From positions 124,001 through 188,000 of the forward strand of contig NZ_AUIT01000001.1 in NCBI RefSeq assembly GCF_000423845.1: DNA of 64,000 nucleotides, written 5' to 3'. The position numbers were made by a program, and so were the translations under genes. How positions within the stretch are numbered: the first letter of the stretch is position 1; each line of letters opens with the position of its first letter. Origin of the DNA: Thermodesulfobacterium hveragerdense DSM 12571 (GTDB lineage: Bacteria; Desulfobacterota; Thermodesulfobacteria; Thermodesulfobacteriales; Thermodesulfobacteriaceae). Below the pieces are notes generated by a model, which was given only the letters and a program-made list of their open reading frames with translations, made no database searches and was not told the origin of the DNA. Shown here in pieces: positions 58,897-64,000 of this stretch.

Positions 58897-58927
58897 ATTA
58901 TATCATGTTTTTGACATATATGTCAAA
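58897..58927 (-). promoter_or_regulatory. Leaderless sigma-70-type promoter with an 18-base palindromic operator
   Basis: On the minus strand TTGACA (58926-58921), an 18-base spacer and consensus TATAAT (58902-58897) stop 6 bases before the ATG at 58890. TTTGACATATATGTCAAA (58927-58910) is a perfect 18-base palindrome covering the -35, a likely repressor site for the flagellar master activator. Confidence 0.7.
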
Positions 58928-58949
58928 TTTTTGGAAAAATTTTTAGATG

Positions 58950-60788
58950 TTATTTGTCGATAAACTTATGGGCATATTTTCTTACATGAGCCCCTTCAAG
59001 CACATGAAAGATCCTGATTTTTTCTAAAAGGTTTTTAGAAAAAGACCCTATAGGGAGGAAAATCACTTTTTTCCCCTGTCTGTAAGCCCAGTTTTTTGTA
59101 AAGGAGGAGGGAGGTTTTTTGGCTATATAAAGAACATATTTCTCAAGGCTGTAGTCTATCCCAGCTAAAAGCAACCTTTCTGCCTTGTTTTCTGCAAGAG
59201 AAAAAAGAGGATCTGTCCAGATGTCATAAACCCTTTTAGGAGGGTAGGTCAACATAAACCCTCCATACTTAGCCCTGGCTATCCCTGGACCTATCACCTT
59301 TTCTTTAGGGTCTGTAGCATAAAAGGCCATATCAGACTCCTGATGGTGCTCTCCATGCCAGGTAAAATTCCAAGGATACTTTTCTTCTCCTGAAATAGGG
59401 TCTGGGTCTTCTTCAAAGATGATAACCAGGGAACCTATTTTGGAACTGGTCTGTGGGTCTTCCTTTATGTAGATGGTTTCTTTAAAAACCCAATTTCTGA
59501 TGGTTTCCCTTATGTCAAGCCCATCTTTAAGGGAAGAAATAAAGGGTTCTATTTTTTTTAGGTTTTCTGTGATGACTTTAAGCCCTTTTTCTGAGGCTTT
59601 TTTACCAAAGGTTTCAACCACTATGTCTTCTGGTGGGAAAGAACAGATGGTTTTACCAGAAAACTTTTGAGCAAAGGTTTTTCTTTCTTCCCTGGAGGTA
59701 AACTTTTTTAAAAACCTAAGCCCTGCCCTTATATTTTTTACCTTTCTAAACAACCTGAGCCTTTTAACAGGTAGGTTTAACTCTTCAGGAGAAAGCTTAA
59801 TCTCAGGATAAGCTATGCCTTCTTTTTTTAGTTCATAAGCTGTTGCCATCTCCCAGACCCAAAAGGCAAACTCGTCTCCTCCTATCCCTCTTGCCGCAAC
59901 GATCAAATCAAAAAGCTCAGGTAAAAAAACCCCTTTAACCAAAAGATAGTTTCTAAGAAATTGCCCCAATACTTTCAAATCCTTGGGAGAAAGCTCACTC
60001 CCAGTTTCGTCTTTAAACTTGGTTATAGCTTTGCTTAAAACCTCTTCCCAAAGAGAAACCCTATCTATCCAAAAAGACGGGTCTTCTGATATACGTTCTC
60101 GGTTTTCTTCATAAACCTGGTGGAAAAAACCTGGCTCAGAAAGTATTTCTCTTATACTTTGTGGATGTAAACGATAGAGGTTTATTTCTACCTGTTGTTT
60201 TTGTGGGAAAAAACACAGGTTGTCTGGATTTTCTAAAGCCTTTAACACCCCTAAAACAAAGGCATAAGGCAAAACCACAGCCACCAAGCCTTCTTTTGCA
60301 AGTTGAGCCACTTTATTGGCTATATAACGCTCCTTAATCCTCACCTCAGGGATTACCCCTTGATTACCCCAACCAGAAATAAGAGTTTGGGTATAAGTCT
60401 GATAACCCATCGCAGGTAAAAAATAGGGAGAAAGGAATTTATCTATCTCAAACGATCCTTCTTCTTGGCAAGGCACATCTATAAAAAAGAGGTCTTTTTT
60501 ATACTCTAAGGCATAACGGGAAGCTTCAGCCAAAGGGCATAGCGGAGAAACTATAAGATACTCTAAACTTCCGTCCTGATAGTTAATTTCTAAGGTAGTA
60601 ATGGTAGGAAGGGTTTTTACGGCAGACAACCATTTTTCTTTAATAAAAGGTGGAAGGACTAAAGCTACAGCCTCAGGGTTTAACCGGTGAAGTTCCTTAG
60701 AGATCCCCTGAGTAATCTCAAGATTTTCTGGGAAAAAAGGTAGTAGAAAAAGAGGAAACTTCCCCTGTTTTAGGTTAATCTTAAGCAT
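58950..60788 (-). CDS. Unrecognised 612-residue protein paired with a MoxR ATPase (possibly DUF5682-like)
   Basis: A soluble protein without signal sequence. The N-terminus ('PEAVALVLPPFIKEKWL', 'PLCPLAEASRYALEYKKDLFFIDVP') has the strand order I associate with DUF5682/TraB-like proteins found with MoxR ATPases, but the match is by eye. The middle (about 230-400) is helical. From about 445 a different domain begins, with 'WHGEHHQESDMAFY' (His478, His481, His482), a possible metal site, and strongly aromatic strands such as 'YGGFMLTYPPKRVYDIW'. It shares one base with the upstream ATPase gene, so the two are coupled. No von Willebrand A domain is seen in it or nearby. Confidence 0.65.
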   Translation of the reverse strand: MLKINLKQGKFPLFLLPFFPENLEITQGISKELHRLNPEAVALVLPPFIKEKWLSAVKTLPTITTLEINYQDGSLEYLIVSPLCPLAEASRYALEYKKDLFFIDVPCQEEGSFEIDKFLSPYFLPAMGYQTYTQTLISGWGNQGVIPEVRIKERYIANKVAQLAKEGLVAVVLPYAFVLGVLKALENPDNLCFFPQKQQVEINLYRLHPQSIREILSEPGFFHQVYEENRERISEDPSFWIDRVSLWEEVLSKAITKFKDETGSELSPKDLKVLGQFLRNYLLVKGVFLPELFDLIVAARGIGGDEFAFWVWEMATAYELKKEGIAYPEIKLSPEELNLPVKRLRLFRKVKNIRAGLRFLKKFTSREERKTFAQKFSGKTICSFPPEDIVVETFGKKASEKGLKVITENLKKIEPFISSLKDGLDIRETIRNWVFKETIYIKEDPQTSSKIGSLVIIFEEDPDPISGEEKYPWNFTWHGEHHQESDMAFYATDPKEKVIGPGIARAKYGGFMLTYPPKRVYDIWTDPLFSLAENKAERLLLAGIDYSLEKYVLYIAKKPPSSFTKNWAYRQGKKVIFLPIGSFSKNLLEKIRIFHVLEGAHVRKYAHKFIDK

Positions 60789-61681
60789 CAGTCTAAAGGA
60801 AAAAGAGTAGGTTTTTTAAATTTTCTACCTTTTTCGATAAACTCTTTGAAAAAGACAAGAGCCTGTGGCCCTAAAATAAGAGAAATAGCCTCTTTTAAAA
60901 CCTCTAAAACAGCTATCTGAGTAGCAGGAGAAGTTTGGTTTAAAAAAGCCAGTTTCTTAGCCACATACCTTCCTATGTTTACACCATCTCTTACGCTGTA
61001 AGGCTCTCCGTATTTATGGGTTATCTGAAGAAAATCTACGATATAATTTGCCGTGGTCTCATCCAGCCAGGGAAGGTTGGTTTTAAGAATATGTCTTTCT
61101 TCTTCAGCTTCAGGAAAGTCTATAAAAATCTGTGGTTGAAGCCTTGATTGGATGTATTCGGGAAGCTCAAAGGTAGAGGCATCTTCGTTCATCGTAACAC
61201 AGAGCCTAAATTCTTTATGAGCCTTTATTTTAATCCCTGCAACCACAGACTCTACATACCTTCTACTATCAAGAAGAGGAGCCAAAGAGGCCCAAGATTT
61301 TTCACTCATCCTGTTTGCCTCATCTATAATAGCCACTCCACCTTTAATCATCGCAGACACAATGGGGCTTGCCATATATCTTATTTTCTTGTCTTCTGAG
61401 ATAACAGGGGTAACGATAAGGTCTTCTGGCCTTGTGTCAACCGTTGCTTGAAAGATATAGACTGACTTGTTAAGTTTTTTAGCAGCTAAATAAGCAAGGG
61501 TTGTCTTCCCTACCCCTGGTTTACCTACTAACCTGGGGGTAAGAGGCAAGTCCTTTTCGTCTACGTTAAGCCAGCAAGCAAGAATTTGGTCTAAAATACC
61601 TTTTCTTTCATAAACCGGAATATCAAGTTCATCAGGATGGCTAAGATAAAGGGTTACACCATCTATTACCGCTGTTTCCAT
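60788..61681 (-). CDS. MoxR/dynein-type AAA+ ATPase
   Basis: A 297-residue AAA+ protein. Walker A 'GKPGVGKT' (53-60), Walker B 'GGVAIIDEANRM' (Asp120, Glu121), sensor-1 region 'LCVTMNED' and the arginine-finger segment 'YIQSRLQPQIFIDFP' are intact. MoxR ATPases act as chaperones that remodel or metallate partner complexes, usually encoded alongside. Here the partner is the 612-residue protein whose start overlaps the stop. The gene has its own ribosome site (AGAGGATAGGG) and a plausible promoter (TTGCCT-17-TAAAAT). Confidence 0.88.
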   Translation of the reverse strand: METAVIDGVTLYLSHPDELDIPVYERKGILDQILACWLNVDEKDLPLTPRLVGKPGVGKTTLAYLAAKKLNKSVYIFQATVDTRPEDLIVTPVISEDKKIRYMASPIVSAMIKGGVAIIDEANRMSEKSWASLAPLLDSRRYVESVVAGIKIKAHKEFRLCVTMNEDASTFELPEYIQSRLQPQIFIDFPEAEEERHILKTNLPWLDETTANYIVDFLQITHKYGEPYSVRDGVNIGRYVAKKLAFLNQTSPATQIAVLEVLKEAISLILGPQALVFFKEFIEKGRKFKKPTLFPLD

Positions 61682-61777
61682 AAAAATTCCCTATCCTCTT
61701 TGTTTTATTAAAAAAATTTTACCACGGCTTAACCTTTCAGGCAACGTTTCTTCACTTATGTCAAGGTCCTAAAAAAT

Positions 61778-61842: not shown

Positions 61843-63297
61843 ATGAAGAAACATGCCAAAAGGGAAAAACTTTCCTCAGGTATAAAAGGTTTAGACGAAA
61901 TTCTATCTGGAGGCTTTTTAGAAAGCAATTCTTATCTTATCACAGGAGGTCCTGGAAACGGTAAAACAACCTTTTGTTTACATTTTCTTGAAGAAGGTAG
62001 TAAAAATGGGGAACCATGTTTATTTATAACCTTAGGTGAAAAAGAAGAACAGATAAGGAAAAATGCTGGTAAACTTGGGCTAAAGCTTGAAAACGTTCAT
62101 TTTCTCGACTTAAGCCCATCTTCAAAGTTTTTTATAGAGATGGAATACTATGATATATTTTCACCAGCAGAGGTAGAAAGAGAGCCTGTGACCCAGGCTA
62201 TCAAAGAGAAAGTTGAAGCTTTAAAACCTAAAAGGGTGGTAATTGATTCTATGACTCATTTTAGATATTTGGCAACCGATGTCTTCCAGTTTCGAAGGCA
62301 GGTTCTCTCTTTTCTTAGATTTCTTACAGAAAATGGGGCCACAGTGCTTTTTACTGCTGAGGCAAGCGTAGAGGCTCCTGACAGTGATTTAAGGTTTTTA
62401 GCTGATGGTATCATAGAACTATCCTTTTCCGAAATCGGTAGACAATTAGAAGTTAAAAAATACCGAGGTTCTGAGTATCTTTCAGGTCAACATTACTATG
62501 AAATTAAAAACGGTTGTGGTATAGTCGTTTTTCCAAGACTCCTTCCCACAGAAAAAAAGATAAATATTAATTTTGAGAAGCTTTCGTCTGGTATACCAGA
62601 GATTGATGAGCTTCTTTACGGAGGTATTGAAAGTGGCACAGTAACCATCATATCAGGACCATCAGGAACAGGTAAAACCACCCTTGGCCTACAGTTTATA
62701 AAAGAGGCCTCTGGAAGAGGGGAAAGAAGCGTGGTTTATACTTTTGAAGAATCGGTCGAAAAAATCGTAGAAAGAGCTCTTTCAATCAACATTCCTATCA
62801 AAAACATGATAGATAAAGGCACCCTTGAAATAAAAAAAATAGAACCTCTAATCTACACTCCTTATTCTTTTGCTCAATTAGTGAAAGAAGATGTAGAAAA
62901 GAGAAATACTAAAATAGTTATGATAGATTCAACCTCTGGTTATAAACTTTCTGTTAGAGGTGCTGAAATTACTACTCACCTTCATGCCCTATGTAAATAT
63001 TTAAACAATCAGGGAGTTACTGTTTTCTTACCTACAGAAATCAAAAAAATCACCGGAGAGTTTCAAATTGCCCAAGAGGACATAAGCTATCTTGCAGACA
63101 ATGTAATCATTTTAAGATACATAGAAATTAAAGGAGAACTCCGGAGAGCAATAGGAGTTCTTAAAAAAAGGCTGGGAGATTTCGAAAAAAACCTAAGAGA
63201 ATTTCAAATAACCAAATATGGTATAAAAGTAGGAGAACCTCTCAAAAACATGCGAAATATTTTGTCTGGTGCCCCAAGTTTTATCGAAGAAACTTAA
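61843..63297 (+). CDS. KaiC-like double ATPase
   Basis: A 484-residue protein with two tandem RecA/KaiC domains. Domain 1 (about 8-240) has 'LITGGPGNGKTTF' and Walker B 'RVVIDSMTHF'; domain 2 (about 250-460) has 'IISGPSGTGKTTLG' and 'IVMIDSTSGY'. Both start with the family phrase 'KLSSGIxxxDExLxGG'. The two-domain size and layout match cyanobacterial KaiC, but no kaiA or kaiB is present. In non-cyanobacteria such proteins are linked with receiver and histidine kinase genes, as here. The ATG follows GAGGGGGC. Confidence 0.92.
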   Translation: MKKHAKREKLSSGIKGLDEILSGGFLESNSYLITGGPGNGKTTFCLHFLEEGSKNGEPCLFITLGEKEEQIRKNAGKLGLKLENVHFLDLSPSSKFFIEMEYYDIFSPAEVEREPVTQAIKEKVEALKPKRVVIDSMTHFRYLATDVFQFRRQVLSFLRFLTENGATVLFTAEASVEAPDSDLRFLADGIIELSFSEIGRQLEVKKYRGSEYLSGQHYYEIKNGCGIVVFPRLLPTEKKININFEKLSSGIPEIDELLYGGIESGTVTIISGPSGTGKTTLGLQFIKEASGRGERSVVYTFEESVEKIVERALSINIPIKNMIDKGTLEIKKIEPLIYTPYSFAQLVKEDVEKRNTKIVMIDSTSGYKLSVRGAEITTHLHALCKYLNNQGVTVFLPTEIKKITGEFQIAQEDISYLADNVIILRYIEIKGELRRAIGVLKKRLGDFEKNLREFQITKYGIKVGEPLKNMRNILSGAPSFIEET

Positions 63298-63298
63298 A

Positions 63299-63649
63299 AT
63301 GAAAACTATTTTAATAATAAGTAAACTAACTAAAAATGTTGAGTTGATGGCTGATTTTCTACAAAAACAAGGATATAACACCATCAAAGCTTACTCATAT
63401 AAAGACCTGGATAAGATATTAATTGATCCTCATTTTGATATAGCTTTTCTTGATATAGCAGGTTATGACAAAAACATTTGGGATTACTGCAAAAAACTAA
63501 AGCTATTAAACAAACCTTTTTATGTTCTATCCAGTTGTAATAATCCCAAAATAAAAGAAGAAAGCCTAACAAGAGGTGCTAAAGGAGTTATTGTCAAACC
63601 CATAGTTATCAAAGAATTTTTAGCAATAATACAATCTTTATTAAGATGA
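63299..63649 (+). CDS. Single-domain response-regulator-like protein
   Basis: A 116-residue receiver domain. Asp52 in 'HFDIAFLDIAGYD' is the phosphorylation site candidate, 'YVLSSCNN' the Thr/Ser switch and 'GVIVKPI' the conserved Lys-Pro. The N-terminal acidic pair that binds magnesium is missing ('LIISKLTK'), so phosphorylation is uncertain. The ATG at 63299 is 1 base after the kaiC-like stop; an in-frame upstream start at 63269 would overlap it. Confidence 0.82.
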   Translation: MKTILIISKLTKNVELMADFLQKQGYNTIKAYSYKDLDKILIDPHFDIAFLDIAGYDKNIWDYCKKLKLLNKPFYVLSSCNNPKIKEESLTRGAKGVIVKPIVIKEFLAIIQSLLR

Positions 63650-63652
63650 TCT

Positions 63653-64000
63653 ATGGAAAAGATATTAATTTTAGTTTCTAACAAAACAAACTATAGTTTA
63701 CTTACAAAAGAATTAAGTTCAAAATATACTATCCTCGATGAAAAGAACGATATTAAAGATTTAAACTTTGACCTGATCATTATAGATGGAGTTGAGCTAA
63801 AAAAACGACAAAAAGAGCTCTTAGAAATCAAGAAAAAGGTCTTTCCCTTGTTTTTACCGGTGATTCTACTTACTACTAAAGATGACCTTAGTCTTGCGGA
63901 AAAAACGTTGTATGAAATCGTCGACGATTTGATCAGAATTCCTATAGAAAAAATAGAATTAAAAGCCAAACTTTATATCTTATTAAGAACTCGATTATAT
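63653..64000 (+). CDS. Receiver-like N-terminus of a signalling protein (3' end outside window)
   Basis: The frame from ATG at 63653 is open to the window edge (116 codons). It reads as a receiver fold: 'ILILVSNKTNYSLL', 'FDLIIIDGVEL' (candidate Asp), 'FLPVILLTTKDDLSLAEK', and 'VDDLIRIPIEKIELKAKLYILLRTR', a phrase typical at the end of receiver domains fused to histidine kinases. Its acidic pair is also absent. Most likely the start of a hybrid sensor kinase partnered with the kaiC-like ATPase; the output domain is not visible. Confidence 0.75.
   Translation, partial: MEKILILVSNKTNYSLLTKELSSKYTILDEKNDIKDLNFDLIIIDGVELKKRQKELLEIKKKVFPLFLPVILLTTKDDLSLAEKTLYEIVDDLIRIPIEKIELKAKLYILLRTRLY

Follow-up and report, generated by a model that had tools for sequence, protein, structure and literature searches.

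The genus Thermodesulfobacterium carries a genuine and, it appears, previously unrecorded two-gene MoxR system, which consists of a MoxR-type AAA+ ATPase and a large partner protein in which no von Willebrand A (VWA) domain can be recognised. As a rule MoxR ATPases act together with VWA proteins, and accounts of how they function generally turn on these co-chaperones; the mechanism of NorQD, for example, requires a finger of the VWA protein within the pore of the ring. We propose, at roughly even odds (a probability of about 0.5), that the two proteins together make an obligate AAA+ remodelling machine of two components, independent of VWA proteins and with the C-terminal domain of the partner as its ring-docking core. 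The pair lies in a 64,000-nucleotide stretch of DNA from T. hveragerdense DSM 12571 (contig NZ_AUIT01000001.1, positions 124,001 to 188,000), to which we refer throughout as the window. A preliminary description of this DNA had suggested that a MoxR gene and an unrecognised partner lacking VWA make up a minimal system of two genes, a suggestion that has stood up well, co-conservation of the two genes being strict.

Table 1. Features of the pair and its immediate surroundings, with coordinates in the window.
Feature	Coordinates	Strand	Basis or remark
MoxR-type AAA+ ATPase, 297 aa, first gene of the pair	60788..61681	(-)	ORF, Pfam, motifs
Partner protein, 612 aa	58950..60788	(-)	ORF; TGATG one-base overlap with the MoxR gene
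Walker A of the MoxR protein, GKPGVGKT (residues 53-60)	61502..61525	(-)	sequence and alignment
Walker B Asp-Glu of the MoxR protein (D120, E121)	61319..61324	(-)	invariant in alignment
Residues 1-345 of the partner (N-terminal half), distantly related to the N-terminus of DUF5682/YehM	59754..60788	(-)	hhalign; Pfam
Pro20; in most relatives the first His of the H-E-H triad	60729..60731	(-)	alignment
Val44; in most relatives the Glu of the triad	60657..60659	(-)	alignment
Phe177; in most relatives the second His of the triad	60258..60260	(-)	alignment
C-terminal domain of the partner (residues 366-612, ~245 residues)	58953..59693	(-)	conservation; no relatives in searches
HGEHH (residues 478-482)	59343..59357	(-)	family core W-[HL]-GE-[HN]-x-[QE]-ESDM
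Perfect sigma-70-like promoter, 12/12, TG before -10	58897..58926	(-)	between partner and downstream sigma-54-type regulator gene
Candidate promoter of the pair, 9/12, TG before -10	61716..61744	(-)	weak, within chance expectation

The gene pair across genomes

The layout originally described, two genes overlapping by a single base, is confirmed by both open reading frames and their TGATG junction (Table 1). That the first gene encodes a MoxR ATPase is likewise upheld by Pfam matches to AAA_5 (E 1.6e-19) and AAA_3 (3.2e-11) and by an intact Walker A, Walker B, sensor 1 and arginine finger; among 15 relatives these elements (including the sensor-1 Asn) and a C-terminal RD are invariant or nearly so. 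The solved structures nearest to the protein are those of Midasin, CbbQ and NorQ, and its dN/dS is 0.04-0.06. Searched by itself, the partner has no significant match in Pfam, NCBIfam, PADLOC, PHROGs or the PDB. A locus in T. thermophilum DSM 1276 is 93% identical across the entire partner.

The preliminary description had staked the case for a new system on two points, namely that the genes should be conserved together and that no characterised family should match the whole partner. We found no such whole-protein match, and co-conservation is near-perfect: among 395 genomes from the phylum, 66 match the partner profile and 65 of the same set carry the MoxR orthologue (E<=1e-25), 64 having both, counts that are not phylogenetically independent and are uncorrected for relatedness. 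The only MoxR-only genome (G380) owes its status to a match of 32%. Both partner-only genomes hold gene fragments only; these decayed remnants are located at G386:C76 and G416:C179 (L132 and L133), where the MoxR orthologue is absent too. Nearly every partner-bearing relative within the order and genus has the two genes side by side, and where the partner does not sit beside a MoxR gene, an orthologue 62-66% identical to MoxR is located elsewhere in the genome (six of six cases). Conversely, 25 genomes without the partner have no MoxR orthologue, their best matches being generic MoxR paralogues at no more than 35% identity, or none. Both genes are missing from three Thermodesulfobacterium genomes. 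The pair is thus optional, yet its two genes are near-obligate to each other. Note that, at the loci sampled, flanking genes vary from genus to genus while the pair is the constant element, so that the inherited unit is the MoxR/partner pair itself.

Outside the phylum, we found the pair on plasmid pS13 of Neochlamydia sp. S13, an amoeba endosymbiont of the Chlamydiota (L130:7144-9857), where the partner is annotated as 'hypothetical protein' and its neighbour as 'AAA family ATPase'. In a viral collection the partner occurs on two contigs only (L075 and L076), repeat scans for relatives returning the same two; the scan of this collection yielded no MoxR relatives, and the partner is absent from phage records. 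On both contigs (L075:368-4583 and L076:125-1957) phage genes follow directly after the partner, with an integrase gene starting some 170 bases past it in L075, and no tRNA attachment sites were found on either. These phage genes are probably prophages integrated beside the pair.

The position upstream of a flagellar operon, to which the preliminary description had drawn attention, holds within the genus and fails in every other genus sampled. Because flagellar genes adjoin it both in the window and elsewhere in the genus, the pair might be taken for a component or regulator of that flagellar system. We consider this barely credible: besides the want of adjacency in other genera, a perfect promoter-like site stands between the pair and the regulator on the flagellar side, so that the genes there are probably transcribed from a promoter of their own. 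A flagellar role is therefore rejected on gene context and promoter. A perfect 18-base palindrome, TTTGACATATATGTCAAA, overlaps the same promoter-like site (window 58907-58931) and looks like an operator. On the other side of the pair, and divergent from it, window 61843-64000 holds the gene of a KaiC-like protein, which has two RecA-type domains; two receiver-like genes come next.

Two dissimilar halves of the partner

The resemblance of the partner's N-terminus to DUF5682/TraB-like proteins, noted earlier, is borne out, though it is visible only through relatives. The window protein itself does not match DUF5682 (PF18934), a profile whose curated cut-off is exceeded in 5 of 198 genomes, all five matches falling within profile positions 1-89. 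Among family members, Pfam reports DUF5682 in 9 of 27 (best 3.4e-6) and, in a second set, in 12 of 21 (best 3.9e-6), with TraB_PrgY_gumN marginal in 4 of 21 (E 0.011). Profile comparison by hhalign is far clearer, matching the N-domain to a set of aligned DUF5682 sequences, with E. coli YehM at its head, at 97.3% probability (E 2.5e-11) over ~276 columns, beginning at the N-terminus of both. Judged by these profiles, the N-terminal half is a homologue of the DUF5682/YehM N-terminus, the likeness being confined to alignment columns 2-331 out of a full length of ~730 residues. The DUF5682 profile finds the C-terminal domain at a mere 0.3% probability, a comparison that doubles as the negative control for the N-domain and on which we reject the C-domain as a DUF5682 C-terminus.

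The invariant polar residues of DUF5682 are H11, E35 and H202 of YehM, and these align with a conserved His, Glu and His in the partner family. In the TIKI/Ere superfamily, His and Glu of the parallel-sheet core are catalytic (PMC6254334). From the order and spacing of the triad we infer, for fold and membership alike, that the N-terminal half is a TIKI/TraB-like domain.

Whatever this triad does in other lineages, the window protein has P20, V44 and F177 in its place. The complete H-E-H is present in 44 of 59 aligned members, or 44 of the 57 in which all three positions are readable, two being truncated at the first position; the other 13 are without both His, and members with a single His number zero among those where both His positions can be read. 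The 13 comprise all 11 Thermodesulfobacterium sequences, the viral-collection member L075 and a distant member, L138, which has lost both His and kept the Glu. Supported branches of the C-domain tree force three separate changes, so the triad, as reconstructed from the alignment and tree, was lost at least three times, including throughout the window genus. With the triad gone and the N-terminal half still constrained (dN/dS 0.12-0.18), the N-domain of the window protein is probably a pseudo-enzyme that retains a structural or binding role.

Conservation is concentrated in the other half of the protein. Mean column identity reaches 70% in the C-terminal domain, the most conserved region, against 48% in the N-terminal half, and dN/dS is 0.03-0.08. 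Residues C382, E387, D388, E392, R431, D461, W477, G479, E480, E484, S485, D486, M487, F489, Y490, R519, W524, Y546, Y554, H595 and R603 are invariant in the 59 members. No Pfam or PDB relative of this domain was found and, among the 395 genomes, it was not seen beyond the partner architecture, the exceptions being fragments and a barely visible signal (E 0.0024) in a divergent 782-residue protein of genome G167. Whereas the MoxR ATPase and the N-domain both have recognised relatives, the C-domain is, as far as these searches reach, an orphan.

The C-domain had been called unfamiliar, with HGEHH as its hallmark and a hint of metal binding. Unfamiliar it is, matching nothing in Pfam or the PDB and neither VWA nor DUF5682 profiles, and HGEHH is located where it was reported; the motif, in contrast, is not conserved, which leaves it unsupported as a metal motif. 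Position 478 is His or Leu, 481 is His in ~90% of members and 482 varies, and we reject a metal site because none of the three His is invariant. By its alignment, HGEHH is best described as a genus-level variant of W-x-GE-(x)3-ESDM. Two matches of the window protein, to BKACE (Pfam, 0.086) and to 3-keto-5-aminohexanoate cleavage enzyme (PDB, 0.39), fall below cut-off, are not family-wide and are put down to chance.

Structure prediction adds little. From alignments of four sequences only (window, L031, L075 and L076), AlphaFold2 produced poor models (mean pLDDT 43.8 and 39.3), and a Foldseek search with the first, a low-confidence model, gave no match at E<=0.001 and a weak hint of HopBA1 (5t09; prob 0.38, TMt 0.34). 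What is said here of a TIKI fold and of the character of the C-domain consequently derives from sequence profiles.

A proposed MoxR machine without VWA proteins

The lack of a VWA domain in the partner, as originally reported, is substantiated by Pfam, which finds none, and by hhalign, which gives 0.6% probability against YehP-type VWA proteins; without profile support, the C-domain as a degenerate VWA is rejected. Absence extends to whole genomes. None of VWA_2, VWA and VWA_CoxE has a match in the window genome (100% complete), despite the pair, or in two further pair-bearing genomes, G005 (one contig, 100%) and G017 (one contig, 99%); as positive controls, the three families matched in 12, 11 and 9 of 14 genomes, respectively. 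Keeping in mind that absence is judged by three Pfam families, which a very divergent VWA-like protein could escape, the pair appears, at that level, to operate without any VWA protein in the cell.

How might such a pair work? We envisage the MoxR protein as an ATP-driven ring, a hexamer if it follows its family, in physical contact with the partner. The partner's C-domain, to judge from its conservation and the co-loss of the two genes, would dock on the ring instead of a VWA domain and provide the functional core, and MoxR would use ATP to reshape either the partner or a client bound to it. The model for this step is NorQ, which remodels the linker of its partner NorD and so allows metal insertion (PMC13036017); we picture MoxR acting on the C-domain in the same manner, with the C-domain in the place of VWA. 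In triad-bearing lineages the N-domain is probably a hydrolase or a ligand-binding module whose access or conformation is set by MoxR ATP hydrolysis. In Thermodesulfobacterium, where the triad is gone and both proteins are under purifying selection, the N-domain is most likely a binding scaffold only: it would merely bind, and the machine would remodel the client so held. We hold it possible, at a shade under an even chance, that this amounts to a VWA-free MoxR machine with an undescribed conserved domain in the VWA role, in which a TIKI-like enzyme domain has repeatedly decayed to a pseudo-enzyme while the machine persisted.

The NorQ precedent, and the fact that the nearest solved relatives of this MoxR are Midasin, CbbQ and NorQ, also lend themselves to a narrower interpretation, in which the pair is a dedicated maturation chaperone like NorQ/NorD or CbbQ/CbbO, responsible for metal insertion or active-site remodelling in one particular enzyme of anaerobes and with the C-domain, in place of VWA, as the bridge to it. 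A patchy, single-copy distribution with species-level loss would suit the helper of an optional enzyme. However, no enzyme gene is a constant neighbour, although such pairs usually adjoin their target, HGEHH is unconserved, and no client was found; we regard this interpretation as rather unlikely.

A third scenario makes the pair a conflict system in which MoxR keeps an effector of TIKI type inactive as long as no invader is detected, in line with the defence role that had been floated for this DNA. The N-domain is, after all, related to the DUF5682 of a multi-gene and sometimes plasmid-borne MoxR locus, one copy of the pair is on the Neochlamydia plasmid, and the two viral-collection copies adjoin phage genes, although the latter look like host flanks. 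Moreover, a divergent relative of both genes in G167 (MoxR 37% identical; the 782-residue protein 27% over residues 14-479) is surrounded by SLOG, RyR-AAA, ThsB-like TIR, NB-ARC-TIR and TPR genes and followed by a TPR protein (L131:435-15278, G167:C12). This island is possibly an undescribed conflict system, and from such company it follows that some branch of the wider family may serve conflict. The main family behaves otherwise: it is single-copy, keeps a fixed position throughout its genus and, at the loci sampled, is not found among defence genes. PADLOC reports nothing for the pair beyond generic AAA and has no match for the partner, and the window genus has lost the putative effector triad while its genes stay constrained. 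A defence role for the main lineage, as suggested earlier, is thus unsupported, and for the window we rate it low, as a decidedly improbable account.

An obligate MoxR pair whose host genomes show no detectable VWA protein provides a natural test of which parts of the NorQD mechanism are general. With only two genes, the pair is also a simple way into the enigmatic DUF5682/YehM family, which is present in E. coli, and its orphan C-domain of ~245 conserved residues, in a VWA-free setting, is worth structural work.

Comparison with known MoxR systems

In E. coli K-12, yehL-yehM-yehP-yehQ (L098:4597-10944) make up a four-gene MoxR/DUF5682/VWA/SWIM set, and a number of plasmids carry a DUF5682 locus with the order SWIM - DUF5691/DUF4132 - MoxR - DUF5682 - VWA. 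Like the window pair, the YehM locus has a MoxR gene directly before a protein with homologous N-terminal ~330 residues, and it shares the H-E-H positions with most partner relatives. The differences are nonetheless considerable: the window pair has no adjoining VWA, SWIM or DUF5691/DUF4132 genes, its neighbouring proteins are unrelated and differ between genera, the C-terminal half of the partner is unrelated to DUF5682/YehM (0.3%), and its MoxR belongs to a subfamily other than that of YehL (BLASTP E 0.029). No YehM was found in the viral collection. Literature naming at least two yehLMPQ genes comprises a genome announcement and a strain resource only, and we found no paper on DUF5682 or on MoxR combined with TIKI, a result that is only indicative because most subscription journals lay outside the search.

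With TIKI/TraB/Ere hydrolases, most partner relatives have in common a His, Glu and His at the expected places and spacing; the window protein, in contrast, is without the triad, and the TIKI-like fold is a prediction from sequence. The MoxR-vWA ternary conflict systems (with VMAP, iSTAND, FtsH or beta-propeller proteins) resemble the pair in combining MoxR with an additional non-VWA component. What defines them, however, is a third protein joined to a MoxR-vWA couple (PMC7159879, Kaur et al. 2020), and the pair has neither the vWA nor the third gene, which places it outside that definition. With NorQ/NorD, CbbQ/CbbO, CoxD/CoxE and RavA/ViaA, finally, the pair shares the plan of a MoxR ATPase and a large obligate partner encoded alongside it, and it is set apart from these MoxR-VWA pairs by a partner that dispenses with VWA and by hosts some of whose genomes encode no detectable VWA protein at all.
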